From NCBI GenBank assembly GCA_021832345.1, contig JAKBKY010000001.1, forward strand, positions 86,385 to 150,384: a DNA stretch of 64,000 nucleotides. The letters run 5' to 3'. Positions 533 to 44,895 of the stretch are shown here, one piece after another. Position 1 is the first letter of the stretch; every line of letters starts with the position of its first letter. The position numbers and the translations under genes are program-made. The notes beneath the pieces were generated by a model, which saw only the letters and a program-made list of their open reading frames with translations, searched no databases and was not told the DNA's origin. Source of the DNA: a bacterium (GTDB lineage Bacteria; Vulcanimicrobiota; Vulcanimicrobiia; Vulcanimicrobiales; Vulcanimicrobiaceae).

Positions 533-2032
533 CTAGCCGTGCTGGCGCTGGAGCGGGAAGAGGATCACGTCGCGAACCGATACCTGCCCGGTCAGCAGCA
601 TGACCAGCCGGTCCATCCCGATCCCGATGCCGGCGGTCGGCGGCATGCCGTACTCGAGGGCGCGCACGTAGTCCCAATCGGGTTCGGGGATCTCCGTATC
701 GCCCTGCGCCCGCTCGGCCACTTGGGCTTCGAATCGTGCGCGTTGGTCGTCGGGGTCGTTGAGTTCGGTGAAGGCGTTGCTAACCTCCATCGAGGCGCAG
801 AAGAGTTCGTAGCGGTCCACCAACTCCGGGTCGCCGGCCTTGCGTTTGGCGAGCGGCGAGATGACGGCCGGATAATCGGTCACAAACGTGGGCTGCAGCA
901 GATGCGGCTCGAGCACCGCCTCAAAGATCTTATCGAGGGCATGGCCGTGCGTCGGCGAGGTGGGCAACCCAAGCTCCGCCGCGACCGCAGCCGCGCCCAC
1001 GGGGTCGAGCAGACGCTCGCGCGTGAATCGCCCATCGCTATAGCGCGCGATACCCTCAAGATAACCGATCCGCGCAAACGGGCGACGGAACGAGATGCTC
1101 TTCTCTCCAAGGCGCAGTTCGTCGGCGCCGCCGGTGACCATCTCCACCAGATGCGCGATCAGCGCTTCGTTAAACTCCCGCATGTCGTCGACGTTCCAAT
1201 ACGCTGCGTAGAGTTCCAGCATCGTGAACTCCGGGTTATGCGTCGTATCGATGCCTTCGTTGCGAAAGATGCGCCCGATCTCATAGACGCGCTCCATGCC
1301 GCCGACGATGAGCCGTTTGAGATTGAGTTCGGTTGCGATGCGTAGTTGGAGTTCTTGGTCCAGCGCATTGACGTGCGTCAGGAATGGCCGCGCACTCGCT
1401 CCGCCGGCAACGTGAAGCAGCGTCGGGGTTTCCACTTCGTAGAAACCGTGGCCGTCGATGAAGCGGCGCGTCTCGGCCAGAATGCGACTGCGCGCCATCA
1501 TCGTCTGCAGAACCTGGGGGTTGACGATGAGGTCGACGTAGCGCAGCCGGTAGCGCTTCTCGACATCCTGTAAGCCGTGCCACTTATCGGGCAGCGGCCG
1601 CAGCGCCTTGGCTAAAAGGGTGAACTCCGTCACGTGCAGCGTCAGCTCACCCAGCTTGGAGCGAAACATGAACCCTGCGACGCCGAGCAGGTCGCCGCGC
1701 TCGATGGCCTTCCAGTCGGCAAAACGCTCCTCGCCGAGTTCGTCTTTGCGCAGATAGAGTTGAATGCGCCCGGTGCGATCGTGCAGATCGGCAAAGATCG
1801 TCTTGCCCATCGTTCGCTTGAGCATGAGCCGCCCGGCCAGGTGCAGCGTCCGGCCGGCTGCGCGCTCTTCCGGCCCGAGATACGCGGACTGCGCCAGCAC
1901 GTCGGCGGCGCTTGCGTCTACGGAGTAACGCACCTGCACGAACGGATCGCGCCCGCACGAACGCAACGCGGCCAGGTCGTCACGTCTGGCCGCGATGAGG
2001 GCTGCTTCGCTCTTTCCGAGATCGTCGTGCAT
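533..2032 (-). CDS. lysS: Lysyl-tRNA synthetase, class II
   Basis: Charges tRNA-Lys with lysine in the cytoplasm. The product is 499 residues, the usual bacterial size. An N-terminal OB-fold anticodon-binding domain (about 55-165) precedes the class II catalytic core. Visible core motifs are IYEIGRIFRNEGID-type motif 2 (VYEIGRIFRNEG) and the C-terminal motif 3 GIGIGMDRLVMLLTG. The open frame extends further upstream, but that extension is arginine-rich and lies inside greA, so ATG at 2032 (MHDDLGKSE) was chosen. It lies 13 bases after greA, the frequent greA-lysS order, so the two are probably co-transcribed. Confidence 0.97.
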   Translation of the reverse strand: MHDDLGKSEAALIAARRDDLAALRSCGRDPFVQVRYSVDASAADVLAQSAYLGPEERAAGRTLHLAGRLMLKRTMGKTIFADLHDRTGRIQLYLRKDELGEERFADWKAIERGDLLGVAGFMFRSKLGELTLHVTEFTLLAKALRPLPDKWHGLQDVEKRYRLRYVDLIVNPQVLQTMMARSRILAETRRFIDGHGFYEVETPTLLHVAGGASARPFLTHVNALDQELQLRIATELNLKRLIVGGMERVYEIGRIFRNEGIDTTHNPEFTMLELYAAYWNVDDMREFNEALIAHLVEMVTGGADELRLGEKSISFRRPFARIGYLEGIARYSDGRFTRERLLDPVGAAAVAAELGLPTSPTHGHALDKIFEAVLEPHLLQPTFVTDYPAVISPLAKRKAGDPELVDRYELFCASMEVSNAFTELNDPDDQRARFEAQVAERAQGDTEIPEPDWDYVRALEYGMPPTAGIGIGMDRLVMLLTGQVSVRDVILFPLQRQHG

Positions 2033-39566: not shown

Positions 39567-39911
39567 TCACAGGTCCAAGATTTCCCTCAGACCGCGGCTA
39601 ATCTTTTGCATGGTATCGCTCTCTAAGCGCCCGTTGAATCGTTGAAGCCGCAGGTGCGAAACGGTTCGGACTTGATTGCACAACACCAGGCTGTCTTTCT
39701 TGAGACCGCCTTCCCCTTTCGTAACTTTGACGGCGATGACCGAGCCCGTTGAACCTTGAGCGTCGCTCAGTGGGCAGACGATCGTAATGGGCGAGGCGGC
39801 GTTTGCCGCGTCTCGTTGAACGATGACGCACGGACGCGTTTTCGCCTGCTCGCTTCCGACGGTCGGGTCCAGCGCTACGTGCCAGACCTGCCCGCGCTTT
39901 ATCTCGGGCAT
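39567..39911 (-). CDS. mazF: MazF/PemK-type mRNA interferase
   Basis: A 114-residue toxin: IKRGQVWHVALDPTVGSEQA, then KTRPCVIVQRD, the classic MazF opening with the catalytic arginine, and LVLCNQVRTVSHLRLQR with the conserved threonine. It begins immediately after the antitoxin stop (TAG then ATG with no gap), so translation is probably coupled. Confidence 0.95.
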   Translation of the reverse strand: MPEIKRGQVWHVALDPTVGSEQAKTRPCVIVQRDAANAASPITIVCPLSDAQGSTGSVIAVKVTKGEGGLKKDSLVLCNQVRTVSHLRLQRFNGRLESDTMQKISRGLREILDL

Positions 39912-40136
39912 CTACTCCAGGCCATCCATCAGCGTGGGCGCAAACTCCGCGTCAACCGACGCGTCTACGCTCGCATTCTGCGAGCACCATTGTGCGATCT
40001 CTGCATCAAGGGCCTCGCGCTCTTTCAGCTTGGCAGCGTTCACTGCAGCACTGACCATGAATGCGCTGCGGTTTGCAGCGACGGAGTCGATCAGAGCGAG
40101 CGCCTCGTCCGGCACAAGTATGGATATTTTAGCCAT
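39912..40136 (-). CDS. mazE: Ribbon-helix-helix antitoxin of the MazF module
   Basis: A 74-residue protein. MAKISILVPDEALALIDSVA, then ANRSAFMVSAAVNAAK, is a ribbon-helix-helix DNA-binding domain, and the acidic C-terminus binds the toxin. ATG 40136 is 6 bases after the -10 box, with no ribosome-binding site. A perfect palindrome AGTATATACT on the -10 is a likely operator. Confidence 0.9.
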   Translation of the reverse strand: MAKISILVPDEALALIDSVAANRSAFMVSAAVNAAKLKEREALDAEIAQWCSQNASVDASVDAEFAPTLMDGLE

Positions 40137-40142
40137 ACTAAG

Positions 40143-40171
40143 AGTATATACTAATGGGCTATATCACGCAA
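40143..40171 (-). promoter_or_regulatory. Promoter and operator of mazEF
   Basis: On the minus strand TTGCGT (40171-40166), 17 bases, TATACT (40148-40143). AGTATATACT at 40143-40152 is a 10-base palindrome covering the -10 and is a candidate MazE site. Confidence 0.75.
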
Positions 40172-40265
40172 GCCGGCAAGCCCGCAAAATCTGCGCGGTG
40201 TTGCACGTGAGAAGCAGAAGCCGCGCTTGACGGAGAGCGGATTCGCAGGCTATCCTCTGGAAGGA

Positions 40266-40523
40266 ATGAAATCCAAGGAGTTCCGAGCAAGGCTCACCAG
40301 TAAGAACCAACTCACGCTGCCGGCCGGCGTCAGTAGGTTACTGCACGTCGGTCCCGGCGATAGCGTTCGCTTCGAGGTTACGAAAGACGGCGTCGTCGTC
40401 GCTCCGGTGCCGATTCGCGAACGCCTGGCGCCGCTCGTCGGCTGCCGGCGCCGAGGCGCTGGGAAAACGCGTCGAGAGATCGATGCCGAGGTTCGCGAGC
40501 TGCGCGGCCCTCGCGACGAGTGA
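40266..40523 (+). CDS. AbrB/MazE-type antitoxin of a PIN module
   Basis: An 85-residue SpoVT/AbrB swapped-hairpin protein: FRARLTSKNQLTLPAGVSRL and LHVGPGDSVRFEVTKDGVVV. The tail contacts the PIN toxin. ATG 40266 was chosen over an upstream in-frame start at 40227, which coincides with a -35 (TTGACG 40227-40232, TATCCT 40251-40256, 18-base spacer). AAGGA abuts the ATG, too close to act normally. GTGA overlap with the next gene. Confidence 0.87.
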   Translation: MKSKEFRARLTSKNQLTLPAGVSRLLHVGPGDSVRFEVTKDGVVVAPVPIRERLAPLVGCRRRGAGKTRREIDAEVRELRGPRDE

Positions 40524-40942
40524 CGGCGCTCGACACGAACGTCCTCATCGATCTCGAAGAGGGCGCTCCCGAGGTTGCGGAACAGGCGCTTGCGGCGATC
40601 GAGCGCGCCGCTGGACGCGGCGCCGTCGTGGTGTGCGGCATCGTCTACGCGGAGCTCTGTGCACGCCCATCCGGCAATGCGTCGGCGATCGCCGCGGAGC
40701 TGCATGCCGCCGGCGTGGTGATCGACGTGGAGCTCCCGATCGGCGTGTGGACGGAAGCGGGGATTGCCTATGCCGCTTTTCGACGCCGCCGCGAACGATC
40801 GGGGGGAGGCGCTCCGCGGCGAATCATTGCGGATTTCATCATCGGCGCGCATGCCGGTCGCGTGGGAGCGCTCGTAACCAGCGATGCGGCTTTCTATCGG
40901 CGAGCCTTTCCGAGCCTGCGTGTCATCGACGTTCGCAGCTAG
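40520..40942 (+). CDS. vapC: PIN-domain ribonuclease toxin (VapC type)
   Basis: A 140-residue PIN nuclease with the acidic site residues visible in TALDTNVLIDLE, VYAELCA, IIADFIIGAHA and LVTSDAAF. Such toxins cut tRNA or rRNA. GTG at 40520 overlaps the antitoxin stop by 4 bases. The partner is of AbrB type, so it is a VapBC-like module. Confidence 0.93.
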   Translation: MTALDTNVLIDLEEGAPEVAEQALAAIERAAGRGAVVVCGIVYAELCARPSGNASAIAAELHAAGVVIDVELPIGVWTEAGIAYAAFRRRRERSGGGAPRRIIADFIIGAHAGRVGALVTSDAAFYRRAFPSLRVIDVRS

Positions 40943-41039: not shown

Positions 41040-41588
41040 ATGAGCGACCACTTCGACGTTGTACGCACGCCCATCGACGGGGCGCTAGTTCTGCACCCGC
41101 GGGTCTTCTCCGATGAGCGCGGCTGCTTTCTGGAGATCTTCTCGCGCGATCGCTACCGCGAGGCCGGCATCGGCGAGCCGTTCGTCCAGGATAACCTCTC
41201 GTCGTCCAAGCGCGGCGTGCTGCGCGGGCTGCACGGCGATCCGCGGATGAGCAAGCTGGTGCAGAGCGTGGCGGGCGACGCCTACGACGTCATCGTGGAC
41301 CTGCGAGCGGGCAGCCCCACCTACCGGCGCTGGTTCGGCCTGACCTTGCGCGCAAGCGAGCGCACCCAGCTCTACGTGCCGGCAGGCTGCCTGCACGGCT
41401 TCCTCGCCCTCAGCGACGAGACGCTCTTCCTCTATAAGCAGAGCGCGCTCTACGATCCGGCCTGCGAGTTCGGCGTGGCGTGGAACGACCCTGATCTGGC
41501 GATCGAGTGGCCGGCGGCGGGCAGCCCGCCGGTCCTCTCGGCCAAAGATGCCGCCAACCCGACGCTGCGCGAGCTCGGGCGGCTGTAA
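41040..41588 (+). CDS. rfbC: dTDP-4-dehydrorhamnose 3,5-epimerase
   Basis: A 182-residue cupin epimerase: FSDERGCFLEIF, then FVQDNLSSSKRGVLRGLHGD with the catalytic histidine region, and LYVPAGCLHGFLALSDETLF. Third step of dTDP-L-rhamnose synthesis. ATG 41040 was chosen; the longer open frame upstream overlaps vapC and is not family sequence. It is apart from rfbD and on the other strand. Confidence 0.94.
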   Translation: MSDHFDVVRTPIDGALVLHPRVFSDERGCFLEIFSRDRYREAGIGEPFVQDNLSSSKRGVLRGLHGDPRMSKLVQSVAGDAYDVIVDLRAGSPTYRRWFGLTLRASERTQLYVPAGCLHGFLALSDETLFLYKQSALYDPACEFGVAWNDPDLAIEWPAAGSPPVLSAKDAANPTLRELGRL

Positions 41589-41640
41589 CTTGGCGGCCCA
41601 TCGGCGGTAAGACCCAACAGAAAGACCGAAACGAGAGGGG

Positions 41641-42279
41641 ATGGCTAGCGGGGTTCCAAGCGATGAAGCGTTGGTGCATGAGATCCGTGAAGGCGACCGC
41701 GAGCGGTTCGCAACGCTGGTCGACCGGTACAAGCGCGGGGTCGCAAACTTCATCGGGGGCAGCATTCGGGACTCGGCCGACGTGGCCGATCTCACGCAGG
41801 AGACATTCTTGCGAGCCTACGCCCACCTGGAGACCTTTAACCCCAACCTCGGCAAGTTTTCGACCTGGATCTACCAAATCGCACGCAACGTCGTTCGCAC
41901 GTATCTCGGCAAGAGCCAACGGCGACCGGCGACGCAAGAACTTCCAGATGAACAGACCCTCGAGAACTGCCTGCCCGATCTCTCGCCCGAGTCCGACCCA
42001 GCCGGGGGCATCCTCCGCCAGGAAGCCGAGCGCGATCTGCGCGCGGCACTCGAGGAGCTCCCCGAACGAACGAGGACGGTACTAGCGCTACGCTACTTCG
42101 ATAACATGGAATACCAAACGATTGCCAACACGACCGGGCTCTCGCTGGGCAACGTGAAGACGCTGATCCACCGCGGCAAGATTGCGCTCGCGCAGAAGAT
42201 GCACGAGCGCGAAGCGGGGCGCTTGCGCATGCCGACGGCTCCACCGAAGGGAGGCTCCCGTGCGTTGCTCTTCGTGTGA
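41641..42279 (+). CDS. ECF-type RNA polymerase sigma factor
   Basis: A 212-residue sigma factor. Region 2 reads ADVADLTQETFLRAYAHLET and FSTWIYQIARNVVRTYL; region 4 reads YQTIANTTGLSLGNVKTLIH. A GAGAGGGG site precedes ATG 41641. The last 20 bases overlap the anti-sigma gene, and a third membrane gene overlaps that, so the three form one unit. The signal is unknown but probably concerns the envelope. Confidence 0.95.
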   Translation: MASGVPSDEALVHEIREGDRERFATLVDRYKRGVANFIGGSIRDSADVADLTQETFLRAYAHLETFNPNLGKFSTWIYQIARNVVRTYLGKSQRRPATQELPDEQTLENCLPDLSPESDPAGGILRQEAERDLRAALEELPERTRTVLALRYFDNMEYQTIANTTGLSLGNVKTLIHRGKIALAQKMHEREAGRLRMPTAPPKGGSRALLFV

Positions 42280-42811
42280 ACCGCTGCTCGACCAGTACCG
42301 CGAAGGCACACTCTCGGCGCGCCGCACCATCGACGTCGCACATCACCTGCGCGGTTGCGCGAGCTGCACGACGCTCATCGCCGAACTCAAAGTCGTCGAT
42401 GCGCTGCTCGCGACCATCAAGCCGCTGGAGCCGGCACCCAACTTTACCTTTGCGGTGATGGCGGAGGTGCGCACACAACCGGCGCCGCGCCGCCGGCCGC
42501 GCTACCACTGGTTCGCGCTCTGCGCCTATGTGGCACTCGCCTGGGTCGCCGTGGCGCTGGTCGTCACCGGCGGCGAAGGCACGCGCGCCGCGCTCGACTC
42601 CCTGGCCGCAAGCCTGGCCATCCTCGCTGCGGGAGCGCAATCGGTGATGCACATCGCCGGCGCCACCGTCGCCTCGGTGCCCCTGGCGGCGGCCGCCGGG
42701 ACGGGGATACTGCTCGTCGACGCGTTCATCTGCGCCGGCATCGTCTACTTCTATCGCTCGGTGCGGCCGCGTTTGGCCGCGCATCTCTCGTCCAGCCCGG
42801 AGGCTTCATGA
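42260..42811 (+). CDS. Membrane anti-sigma factor with zinc-finger domain
   Basis: A 183-residue protein. The N-terminal ZAS domain has CSSCEPLLDQYREG and the H-x3-C-x2-C motif in HHLRGCASCTTL. Two or three membrane segments follow (about 85-105, 125-150, 155-170), and a short cytoplasmic tail. GTG 42260 is preceded by AGGGAGG at 42247-42253. It should hold the upstream sigma factor inactive at the membrane. Its stop overlaps the next start in ATGA. Confidence 0.9.
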   Translation: MRCSSCEPLLDQYREGTLSARRTIDVAHHLRGCASCTTLIAELKVVDALLATIKPLEPAPNFTFAVMAEVRTQPAPRRRPRYHWFALCAYVALAWVAVALVVTGGEGTRAALDSLAASLAILAAGAQSVMHIAGATVASVPLAAAAGTGILLVDAFICAGIVYFYRSVRPRLAAHLSSSPEAS

Positions 42812-43677
42812 AACATCGGATGTTGCTCGTGCTCGCCGTTGCGCTCGTCGCTTGCGCCGCCTTCGCGCGCCCGGCGCTCGCGCATACGCAAGCGATCGAC
42901 CACGGCGGCTCCTATATCGGCAACGTCATCGTGCGCCCGGGGCAAGTCGTCGACGGCAGCCTCAACGTCGTCTTCGGTGACGCGACCATCGCCGGCACCG
43001 TGAACGGTGACGTGAACGTGGTGGGCGGGAGCGTGATCGAAGAGCCGGGCGGCGTGGTCACCGGGCACATCAATACGCTCGGCAAGGACATGGCGCGCAC
43101 CGTCGTGCCGTGGCTGCCGCGCGCCCCGTGGAACATGTTGAACGTCGAGAACCTGCACATGCTCAACAGCCTGATGTGGGACGTCGTGGTGCTGGTCTTC
43201 TTCCTCATCTTCCCGTTGCGCACCAAGATCGCACTGGAGCGCCTGGAGCGCCATCCGGGGCTCTGCGCGGCGGTCGGGCTGCTGGGCTGGGTCGCGGTGA
43301 TTCCGCTGGCGCTGCTGCTGCTGGTGACGCTGATCTTGATTCCGCTGATCCCCGTGGAGATGCTGGCGGTCTTCGTCGGTGTGCTGATCGGCAAGGCGGC
43401 GCTGGCGCTGCTGGTCGGCCGGCGCCTGGCGGAGCTGGTCAGCCCCTCGACGACCACGCCGCCGCTGGCGGCGCTGGTGCTGGGCTTGGTGCTGCTCACG
43501 GCCGCAGAACTGGTGCCGCTGGTGGGCGGCCTCGTGACGGCGCTGATCTGGCTCGTCGGCCTGGGGGCAACGATTCTGGCCTTCGTACAGGAGCATATCT
43601 TCACCGGCGTGACCGGCGGCATAGCGACCGTCACGCCGCACGGCCCGATTAGCGGACCCCCGATGACGACTGCCTAA
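42808..43677 (+). CDS. Membrane protein with bactofilin-like N-terminal repeats
   Basis: A 289-residue protein. After a signal peptide (LLVLAVALVACAAFARPALA) come short beta repeats, including VIVRPGQVVDGSLNVVFGDA, TIAGTVNGDVNVVGGS and PGGVVTGHINTLG, resembling polymer-forming bactofilin domains. About five membrane segments follow (roughly 130-275). The repeat part would face outside the cytoplasm, unlike true bactofilins. Translationally coupled to the anti-sigma gene, it may be the sensor or main target of that system; this is inference. Confidence 0.8.
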   Translation: MKHRMLLVLAVALVACAAFARPALAHTQAIDHGGSYIGNVIVRPGQVVDGSLNVVFGDATIAGTVNGDVNVVGGSVIEEPGGVVTGHINTLGKDMARTVVPWLPRAPWNMLNVENLHMLNSLMWDVVVLVFFLIFPLRTKIALERLERHPGLCAAVGLLGWVAVIPLALLLLVTLILIPLIPVEMLAVFVGVLIGKAALALLVGRRLAELVSPSTTTPPLAALVLGLVLLTAAELVPLVGGLVTALIWLVGLGATILAFVQEHIFTGVTGGIATVTPHGPISGPPMTTA

Positions 43678-43686
43678 GTACGTGCC

Positions 43687-44895
43687 ATGAGCACGATCTC
43701 TCGTTCTGCCAAGTTCGCCGAGCGGACGAGCCGCCTTCGGGCCTCGACCATCCGCGAGATGCTGAAGGTGACGCAGCAGCCGAATGTCATCTCCTTCGGC
43801 GGTGGTCTGCCTGCACCGGAACTCTTTCCGGTGGCGGCAGTCGCCGAGTGTACCGCCGAGATCATGGAAGAGATCGGCGCCAGTGCCCTGCAGTACAGCG
43901 TGACGCAAGGCATCCCCGAGATGCGCACTTGGGTTGCGCAGCGATTAGCAACGCAGATGGCACGCGACGTGAGCGCCGACGACGTGCTGATCGTCAACGG
44001 CTCGCAGCAAGGGCTCGACCTGCTCGGCAAGATCTTCCTCGATCCGGGCGACCACGTGTTGCTCGAACGCCCGACGTATCTCGGCGCGATTCAAGCCTTC
44101 GATGCCTATCAGGCGCAGTACCTCAGCGTGGAGACCGACGAACACGGCATCGTGCCGGAGTCGCTCGAACGCATCATCGAGCGCGCCGATCCGCTGCCGA
44201 AGTTCCTCTACCTCGTGCCGACCTTTCAGAACCCGACCGGCCGCACGCTCTCCATCGAGCGGCGCGAGCGCATCGTGCGCATCTGCGAGCGCTTCGAGGT
44301 GCCGATCGTCGAGGACGACCCCTATCACGAGCTGCGCTTCGAGGGCGAACCGCTCCCGCCTCTGGTCAGCTTCGCGCGCAACGGCAGCGTGATCTACCTT
44401 GGGACGGGCAGCAAGATTGTGGCGCCGGGGCTGCGGATCGCGTGGCTGGTCGCAAGCGATCCGGAGGTGCGCGAAAAACTCATCCTGGCAAAGCAAGGAG
44501 CAGACCTGCACAGCGGCTCGCTGGCACAGTACATCTTCCACCGCTTCGTCAGCCGCCGCGAGGCGTTTGCGCGCCACCTCGAAGCGATCGTGGCGACCTA
44601 TCGCGGCCGGCGCGACGTCATGTACGCGGCGCTGGGCGAGTTCATGCCGGAGTCGGTGCGCTTCAATAAGCCTGAGGGCGGCATGTTCCTCTGGGCGAGC
44701 GTGGCAGGCATCGATACCACCGCGCTGCTCGAGCGCTCCAAAGAGGAGCGGGTGGTCTTTGTGCCCGGCGTGAGTTTTTATCCACAGCGCGACGTCGTCG
44801 AGAGCATGCGGCTCAACTTCTCCAACGCCGGAGAAGAGAAGATTCGGGTCGGCATCGAACGACTCGCTAGCGTCATCCGCTCGTCCGCCCGGTAG
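43687..44895 (+). CDS. Class I PLP aminotransferase, LysN/2-aminoadipate type
   Basis: A 402-residue aminotransferase: NVISFGGGLPAPELFPVAAV, LQYSVTQGIPEMRTWVAQRL, FLYLVPTFQNPTGRTLS and the PLP lysine in IYLGTGSKIVAPGLRIAW. The family includes LysN and 2-aminoadipate and branched-chain aminotransferases; specificity cannot be read. Its start lies 9 bases after the bactofilin-like gene, and it is followed at 10 bases by an unknown gene. Confidence 0.92.
   Translation: MSTISRSAKFAERTSRLRASTIREMLKVTQQPNVISFGGGLPAPELFPVAAVAECTAEIMEEIGASALQYSVTQGIPEMRTWVAQRLATQMARDVSADDVLIVNGSQQGLDLLGKIFLDPGDHVLLERPTYLGAIQAFDAYQAQYLSVETDEHGIVPESLERIIERADPLPKFLYLVPTFQNPTGRTLSIERRERIVRICERFEVPIVEDDPYHELRFEGEPLPPLVSFARNGSVIYLGTGSKIVAPGLRIAWLVASDPEVREKLILAKQGADLHSGSLAQYIFHRFVSRREAFARHLEAIVATYRGRRDVMYAALGEFMPESVRFNKPEGGMFLWASVAGIDTTALLERSKEERVVFVPGVSFYPQRDVVESMRLNFSNAGEEKIRVGIERLASVIRSSAR

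Follow-up and report, generated by a model that had tools for sequence, protein, structure and literature searches.

The window analysed here is a 64,000-nucleotide stretch of a Vulcanimicrobiaceae contig, and it contains three forward-strand genes that overlap one another. The first gene (41641..42279, ATG start) encodes an ECF sigma factor of 212 amino acids, and the second (42260..42811, GTG start) encodes a membrane-bound zinc-type anti-sigma factor of 183 amino acids with the motif HLRGCASC and a short exoplasmic part. The third (42808..43677, ATG start) encodes a 289-amino-acid protein predicted to be an exported bactofilin-fold membrane protein, with a signal peptide, a beta-helix, five predicted membrane helices and a Pro-rich tail. 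The preliminary description of this DNA had reported a trio with overlaps of 20 and 4 bases, and both were exact in the sequence and its translations: the sigma and anti-sigma genes share 42260-42279, and the anti-sigma and third genes share 42808-42811 (ATGA). The 20-base overlap was kept in 57 of the 63 trios read and the 4-base overlap in 46 of 63, in tallies where the starts of some loci were script-chosen and may be off. Judged from this conservation, the 20-base overlap is more than chance. In one draft genome (L044, 1009-2322) the anti-sigma factor and the third protein form one open frame of 437 amino acids, which is either a natural fusion or a sequencing error.

The sigma protein matched only the Pfam sigma-70 regions 2 and 4 (r2 and r4/r4_2) over the cut-off, with E-values of 1.4e-17 for Sigma70_r2 and 8e-16 for Sigma70_r4_2, and it scored 104.8 bits against TIGR02937 (sigma70-ECF; cut-off 42.9). 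The anti-sigma factor, whose gene adjoins the ECF gene, matched zf-HC2 over the Pfam cut-off (6.1e-06), and the Hx3Cx2C motif was kept in all 64 anti-sigma relatives checked. By our reading of its sequence, the anti-sigma factor has two clear membrane stretches. Because only about 40 residues separate them, it appears to carry no evident outside sensor domain of its own.

The preliminary description had proposed a search for an ECF target promoter upstream of position 41641, and a candidate was located there. The predicted ECF-type promoter occupies 41584..41609 on the forward strand, with the -35 element TGTAAC at 41584-41589, where it shares bases with the stop codon of the preceding rfbC, and the -10 element GGTA at 41606-41609. 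In 56 of the 61 loci the stretch ahead of the sigma gene carried the same pattern, AAC followed after 16 to 18 bases by GTA, whereas 100 dinucleotide shuffles gave such a site in 2.1 loci on average and in 5 at most. GN preceded AAC in the best site of each of those 56 loci. We take this two-part AAC/GTA site to be the form of an ECF promoter. With such a promoter at its head, the operon very probably controls its own transcription. No second promoter target was convincing in the same genome, where a strict pattern gave 5 sites versus 3 for the reversed control, and no regulon was found; this pattern omitted the longer of the two spacings, which makes it a weak regulon search. An AAC/GTA site also preceded sigma in 7 of 9 Bacillota, 11 of 18 Acidobacteria and 2 of 7 Gemmatimonadetes loci, and in none of 13 Acetobacterium loci. 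The Acetobacterium loci that were inspected (within L275-L290) share the stretch CGTTATATA upstream of the sigma gene. At another locus (L020), the -35 region is tandemly duplicated upstream of the sigma gene.

Genes for surface sugars and the wall neighbour the trio in the window, namely rmlD, rmlC, a MurJ-family flippase and a sugar transferase, and the rmlC neighbour was conserved in 28 of the 67 loci read. A class I/II aminotransferase gene (43687..44895, forward strand; Pfam Aminotran_1_2, 4.7e-32) follows nine bases downstream of the third gene. An aminotransferase match was found in 35 of the 67 loci, the window's own included, and this conserved neighbour is perhaps co-transcribed with the trio. 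It was left out as a fourth part of the switch since it is conserved in part of the family only. Two small gene pairs at 39567-40942 resemble toxin-antitoxin pairs by look, one with a MazF-like protein and a small partner and the other with an AbrB-type and a PIN-type protein. The AbrB-type/PIN-type pair was present in one of the 67 loci, the window's own being among them.

The third protein had been called bactofilin-like, a term that the fold model and a profile search against PDB sequences support and that the Pfam score does not. The Pfam Bactofilin family (PF04519) matched the third protein with an E-value of 0.0086 and 16.7 bits, below the gathering cut-off of 27.9, and a PF04519 search of its own genome gave no match at E <= 0.001. 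Among 26 aligned members, seven matched at E <= 0.01, with a best value of 0.0013. Distant relatives scored over the bactofilin cut-off, including a stand-alone relative (L065, 42.2 bits) and the third protein of Acetobacterium tundrae (L196, 41.5 bits). When a profile of 13 diverse relatives was compared to PDB sequences, bactofilins came first (6ria, E 0.0058; 2n3d, E 0.2).

An AlphaFold2 model of the third protein was built from 26 sequences (pLDDT 82.6, pTM 0.60). It contained a signal helix, then beta strands at about residues 32-91 forming a short beta-helix, and helices at 111-134, 150-173, 180-211, 219-234 and 237-259, which we read as membrane-spanning. In a VIA-align comparison the Thermus bactofilin 6ria came top with Z 7.0 and an rmsd of 1.9 over 61 residues, ahead of a runner-up at Z 4.7; this alignment spans part of the core length, and its Z below 8 may, taken alone, mean a common arrangement. 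In Foldseek against the PDB, the 6ria chain ranked 25th with E 3.9, and nothing reached E < 0.001 for either this model or that of the Bacillota trio L092. In the third protein of L092 the beta-helix is longer, and its turns have 17 residues. Its model (pLDDT 72.7) superposed on the bactofilin filament 6rib with rmsd 1.4 over 95 of 101 residues, 26% identity and Z 11.9, and longer beta-helices from other families outranked the bactofilin by Z (an antifreeze protein at Z 16.9, GlmU and others). Polymer-type, as the preliminary description had called the repeats, is a term that applies to other members of the bactofilin family. The third protein may polymerise, and since the beta-helix in the window is short, this is less certain for this organism than that wording implied.

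The placement of the repeats outside the cytoplasm and the presence of several membrane segments, both claimed earlier, agreed with prediction, which gave a signal peptide, a positive-inside bias and about five helices. A hydrophobic N-terminal start, read as a signal peptide, was present in 64 of 67 relatives. The mean K+R counts over 51 sequences were 3.57 and 2.53 for the predicted inner loops and 0 and 0 for the outer loops, and a second family of the same class (12 sequences) gave 2.58 and 2.42 for the inner loops and again 0 and 0 for the outer loops. Since the signal peptide and the positive-inside charge bias (63 relatives) agree, the beta-helix is predicted to lie outside the cytoplasm and the Pro-rich tail inside. 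A GPPM-like motif closes this predicted cytoplasmic tail in 57 of 67 relatives (window 43634-43677).

Bactofilins (PF04519; Thermus 6ria/6rib and Caulobacter BacA 2n3d) resemble the third protein in their beta-helix with turns of about 17 residues, and they were its best structural and profile match. What sets the third protein apart from them is a signal peptide, a predicted outside location where a bactofilin is expected in the cytoplasm, a C-terminal five-helix membrane domain, a short core and a score below the Pfam cut-off. In PMC12364344, known bactofilins are described as cytoskeletal proteins that are mostly membrane-bound via a short amphipathic peptide, and N-terminal membrane domains as limited to a subset of Gammaproteobacteria. 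Filing the third protein as a bactofilin was rejected, since the Pfam cut-off was missed and the predicted location is outside. The predictions support an exported protein with a bactofilin fold.

Absence of the trio elsewhere had been named in the preliminary description as grounds for refuting it; the trio is real and widespread, recurring in several phyla. Of 149 genomes of the window's phylum, 97 contained the third protein (E <= 0.001) and 92 a sigma orthologue (E <= 1e-50). A comparison of the two lists by hand gave 91 genomes with both and seven with only one of these. Sigma without the third gene was found in a single genome (G091), where by its coordinates it lies at a contig end. The third gene without a sigma orthologue was counted in six genomes, of which two are at contig ends (G102, G110), two contain a diverged trio (G056, G064) and two a stand-alone relative (G058, G066). 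The 67 loci read comprised 49 returned by searches and 18 hand-chosen places. Sigma, anti-sigma and third gene followed in the same order and on the same strand in 63 of them; the other four were two diverged trios and two stand-alone relatives, and L063 and L065 are stand-alone relatives without any sigma.

Beyond the phylum, a DNA-pattern scan detected the trio in a Syntrophomonadaceae MAG (L092), where both junctions overlap by four bases, and in a Gemmatimonadetes MAG (L147/L272). A Myxococcaceae MAG (L273) also contains the sigma, zinc-type anti-sigma and third genes. In profile searches, the third family was detected in 87 of 249 genomes from the phylum of the Syntrophomonadaceae MAG (here called Bacillota), in 119 of 199 from the phylum of an Acidobacteria MAG, in 74 of 81 from that of the Gemmatimonadetes MAG and in 16 of 19 genomes of the genus of Acetobacterium tundrae; these counts also take in weak matches that cover just the beta region. 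Among the 30 best-scoring loci per phylum, which are not a random sample, a sigma gene stood upstream in 12 (Bacillota), 23 (Acidobacteria) and 17 (Gemmatimonadetes), and an anti-sigma factor was also recognised in 12, 14 and 15 of the 30, respectively.

The linkage might in principle be chance or purely positional, joining an ordinary ECF pair to an unrelated membrane protein, and the partial conservation of the rmlC and aminotransferase neighbours fits this explanation. However, the trio is kept in other phyla, and in the control such a sigma gene stood upstream of 2 of 314 other long frames, one of which overlaps a trio itself. We therefore regard chance linkage as highly improbable.

Several relatives depart from the arrangement in the window. 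In the Acetobacterium genus a sigma gene stood upstream in 15 of 16 loci, and the 16th has only 213 bases upstream. The zinc motif was found in none of these 16 loci, and in A. tundrae (L196) a 128-amino-acid membrane protein without a Pfam match occupies the anti-sigma position. Acidobacteria third proteins (L238, L240, L242) carry an extra C-terminal membrane domain, presumably of RDD type by its look, and the Myxococcaceae third protein (L191, reverse strand) has an extra N-terminal stretch that we take to resemble a secretin/TonB short domain. Open frames of 468-737 amino acids in Acidobacteria hinted that anti-sigma and beta-helix might be fused there, a reading that was rejected because the frames run from stop to stop; the long frames inspected have a start and a signal-like stretch well inside the frame and lack an Hx3Cx2C motif. 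In the Gemmatimonadetes MAG the trio is followed by a gene for a LiaF-C/Toast_rack protein (L147, 4651-5787, reverse strand), which represents another beta-helix type with a link to envelope stress.

Taken together, we give about an even chance to the reading that the operon encodes an autoregulated module of the envelope. In this reading the anti-sigma factor has the exported bactofilin-fold protein as its partner in the membrane, and that protein serves as both sensor and main product. The zinc-type anti-sigma factor, whose own outside stretch is short, would hold the ECF sigma factor at the membrane. The outside part that this factor lacks would come from the third protein, whose five membrane helices would anchor its beta-helix at the outer surface of the cytoplasmic membrane and whose Pro-rich tail would lie inside. 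If the beta-helix changed its state, through assembly or through contact with a wall or surface polymer, this change might then pass via the membrane helices to the anti-sigma factor. This signal would free the sigma factor, which would transcribe its own operon and so raise the amount of exported protein in a feedback loop. We infer the contact between the third protein and the anti-sigma factor, as well as the direction of the signal. A three-part switch is the simplest reading because the anti-sigma factor lacks an outside part and the third protein has one, because the genes overlap, and because sigma does not occur without the third gene in the phylum apart from one contig end.

A narrower role is also conceivable, with the third protein acting as a co-anti-sigma factor or stabiliser whose membrane domain keeps the anti-sigma factor in position and whose beta-helix is incidental. 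In favour of this, conservation of the third protein is strongest in the membrane domain, with most of the invariant residues from position 132 on, and in 46 of 63 trios its gene overlaps the anti-sigma gene by 4 bases. However, the beta region is kept in the aligned trios and is much longer in other phyla, as in L092, so that it is hardly incidental, and we consider a pure stabiliser quite unlikely.

The third family also occurs alone. In the Bacillota sample of best-scoring loci, 18 of 30 third-family loci have no sigma gene upstream; therefore, the family has a function of its own and can work without the switch. In five of these sigma-less loci (L212, L230, L232, L234, L236) the next gene downstream is CdaA-like. 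CdaA, the c-di-AMP synthase, was confirmed in the two that were tested (Pfam DAC 1.2e-48 and 7.6e-48), and the other three were assigned by look. Stand-alone third-gene relatives upstream of CdaA lie, for example, at 2408-3205 of L212 and at 596-1414 (reverse strand) of L230. The neighbour of these sigma-less third genes is again a membrane signalling protein.

Accordingly, the third protein may be the product of the switch rather than its sensor. It would then be an envelope scaffold supplied by an ECF switch that answers another cue, for example lipid or wall stress acting directly on the anti-sigma factor. The autoregulatory-type promoter would also serve the third gene, the strict genome pattern, with the longer spacing outside it, gave no other clear target site, stand-alone relatives without sigma exist, and the neighbours in the window are the surface-sugar and wall genes named above. 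Against this stand the near absence from the phylum of sigma without the third gene, seen at one contig end, and an anti-sigma factor that by our reading has almost no outside part of its own. A scaffold that is purely output is a fair possibility, and the three-part switch, with the third protein as sensor and main product, is the preferred reading by a modest margin.

The operon shares with ECF systems that have a class I zinc-type membrane anti-sigma factor a sigma factor of sigma2 and sigma4 only, the Hx3Cx2C motif, adjacent genes and an upstream ECF-type promoter. Unlike these usual pairs, it has a dedicated third gene for a predicted exported beta-helix. CnrYXH is an ECF switch with a separate outside partner, CnrX. 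CnrYXH and RseA-RseB resemble the trio in combining sigma, anti-sigma and a further outside-facing partner in a single operon. CnrX and RseB are not known to be beta-helices, and we know of no fold that the third protein has in common with them. RseB is presented as the separate outside partner of the RseA-RseB switch in PMC8103513, and class I anti-sigma domains are generally thought to be fused to further domains for stimulus perception, according to PMC7406223.

The nearest described idea is that of the Toastrack/LiaF modules of PSP-like stress systems, which combine a beta-helix with a membrane domain and occur in operons with transcription factors, including a linked sigma factor (PMC11237479). 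Toastrack is proposed to be intracellular, and the word bactofilin is absent from the main text of that paper (PMC11237479). The protein in the window differs in its predicted outside location, and its Pfam search gave no Toastrack/LiaF match at E <= 1. Our literature search returned no recognised description of an ECF operon with a bactofilin; the supplementary neighbourhood tables of the ECF classification, which were outside this search, could list one.

These results link the bactofilin fold, studied as an inside cytoskeleton, with ECF switches, a link not found in the literature searched. A further-reaching idea, which we hold to be doubtful, is that an outside bactofilin-fold scaffold exists in many phyla and that a dedicated ECF sigma/anti-sigma pair, in some Bacillota perhaps also the CdaA encoded next door, directly senses its state of assembly, so that the cell would measure and rebuild an outside skeleton. 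The outside sensors of ECF switches are often unknown, and the trio offers a concrete candidate for reading the state of the envelope. Furthermore, as the operon is widespread, a result from one cultured host would bear on many phyla.
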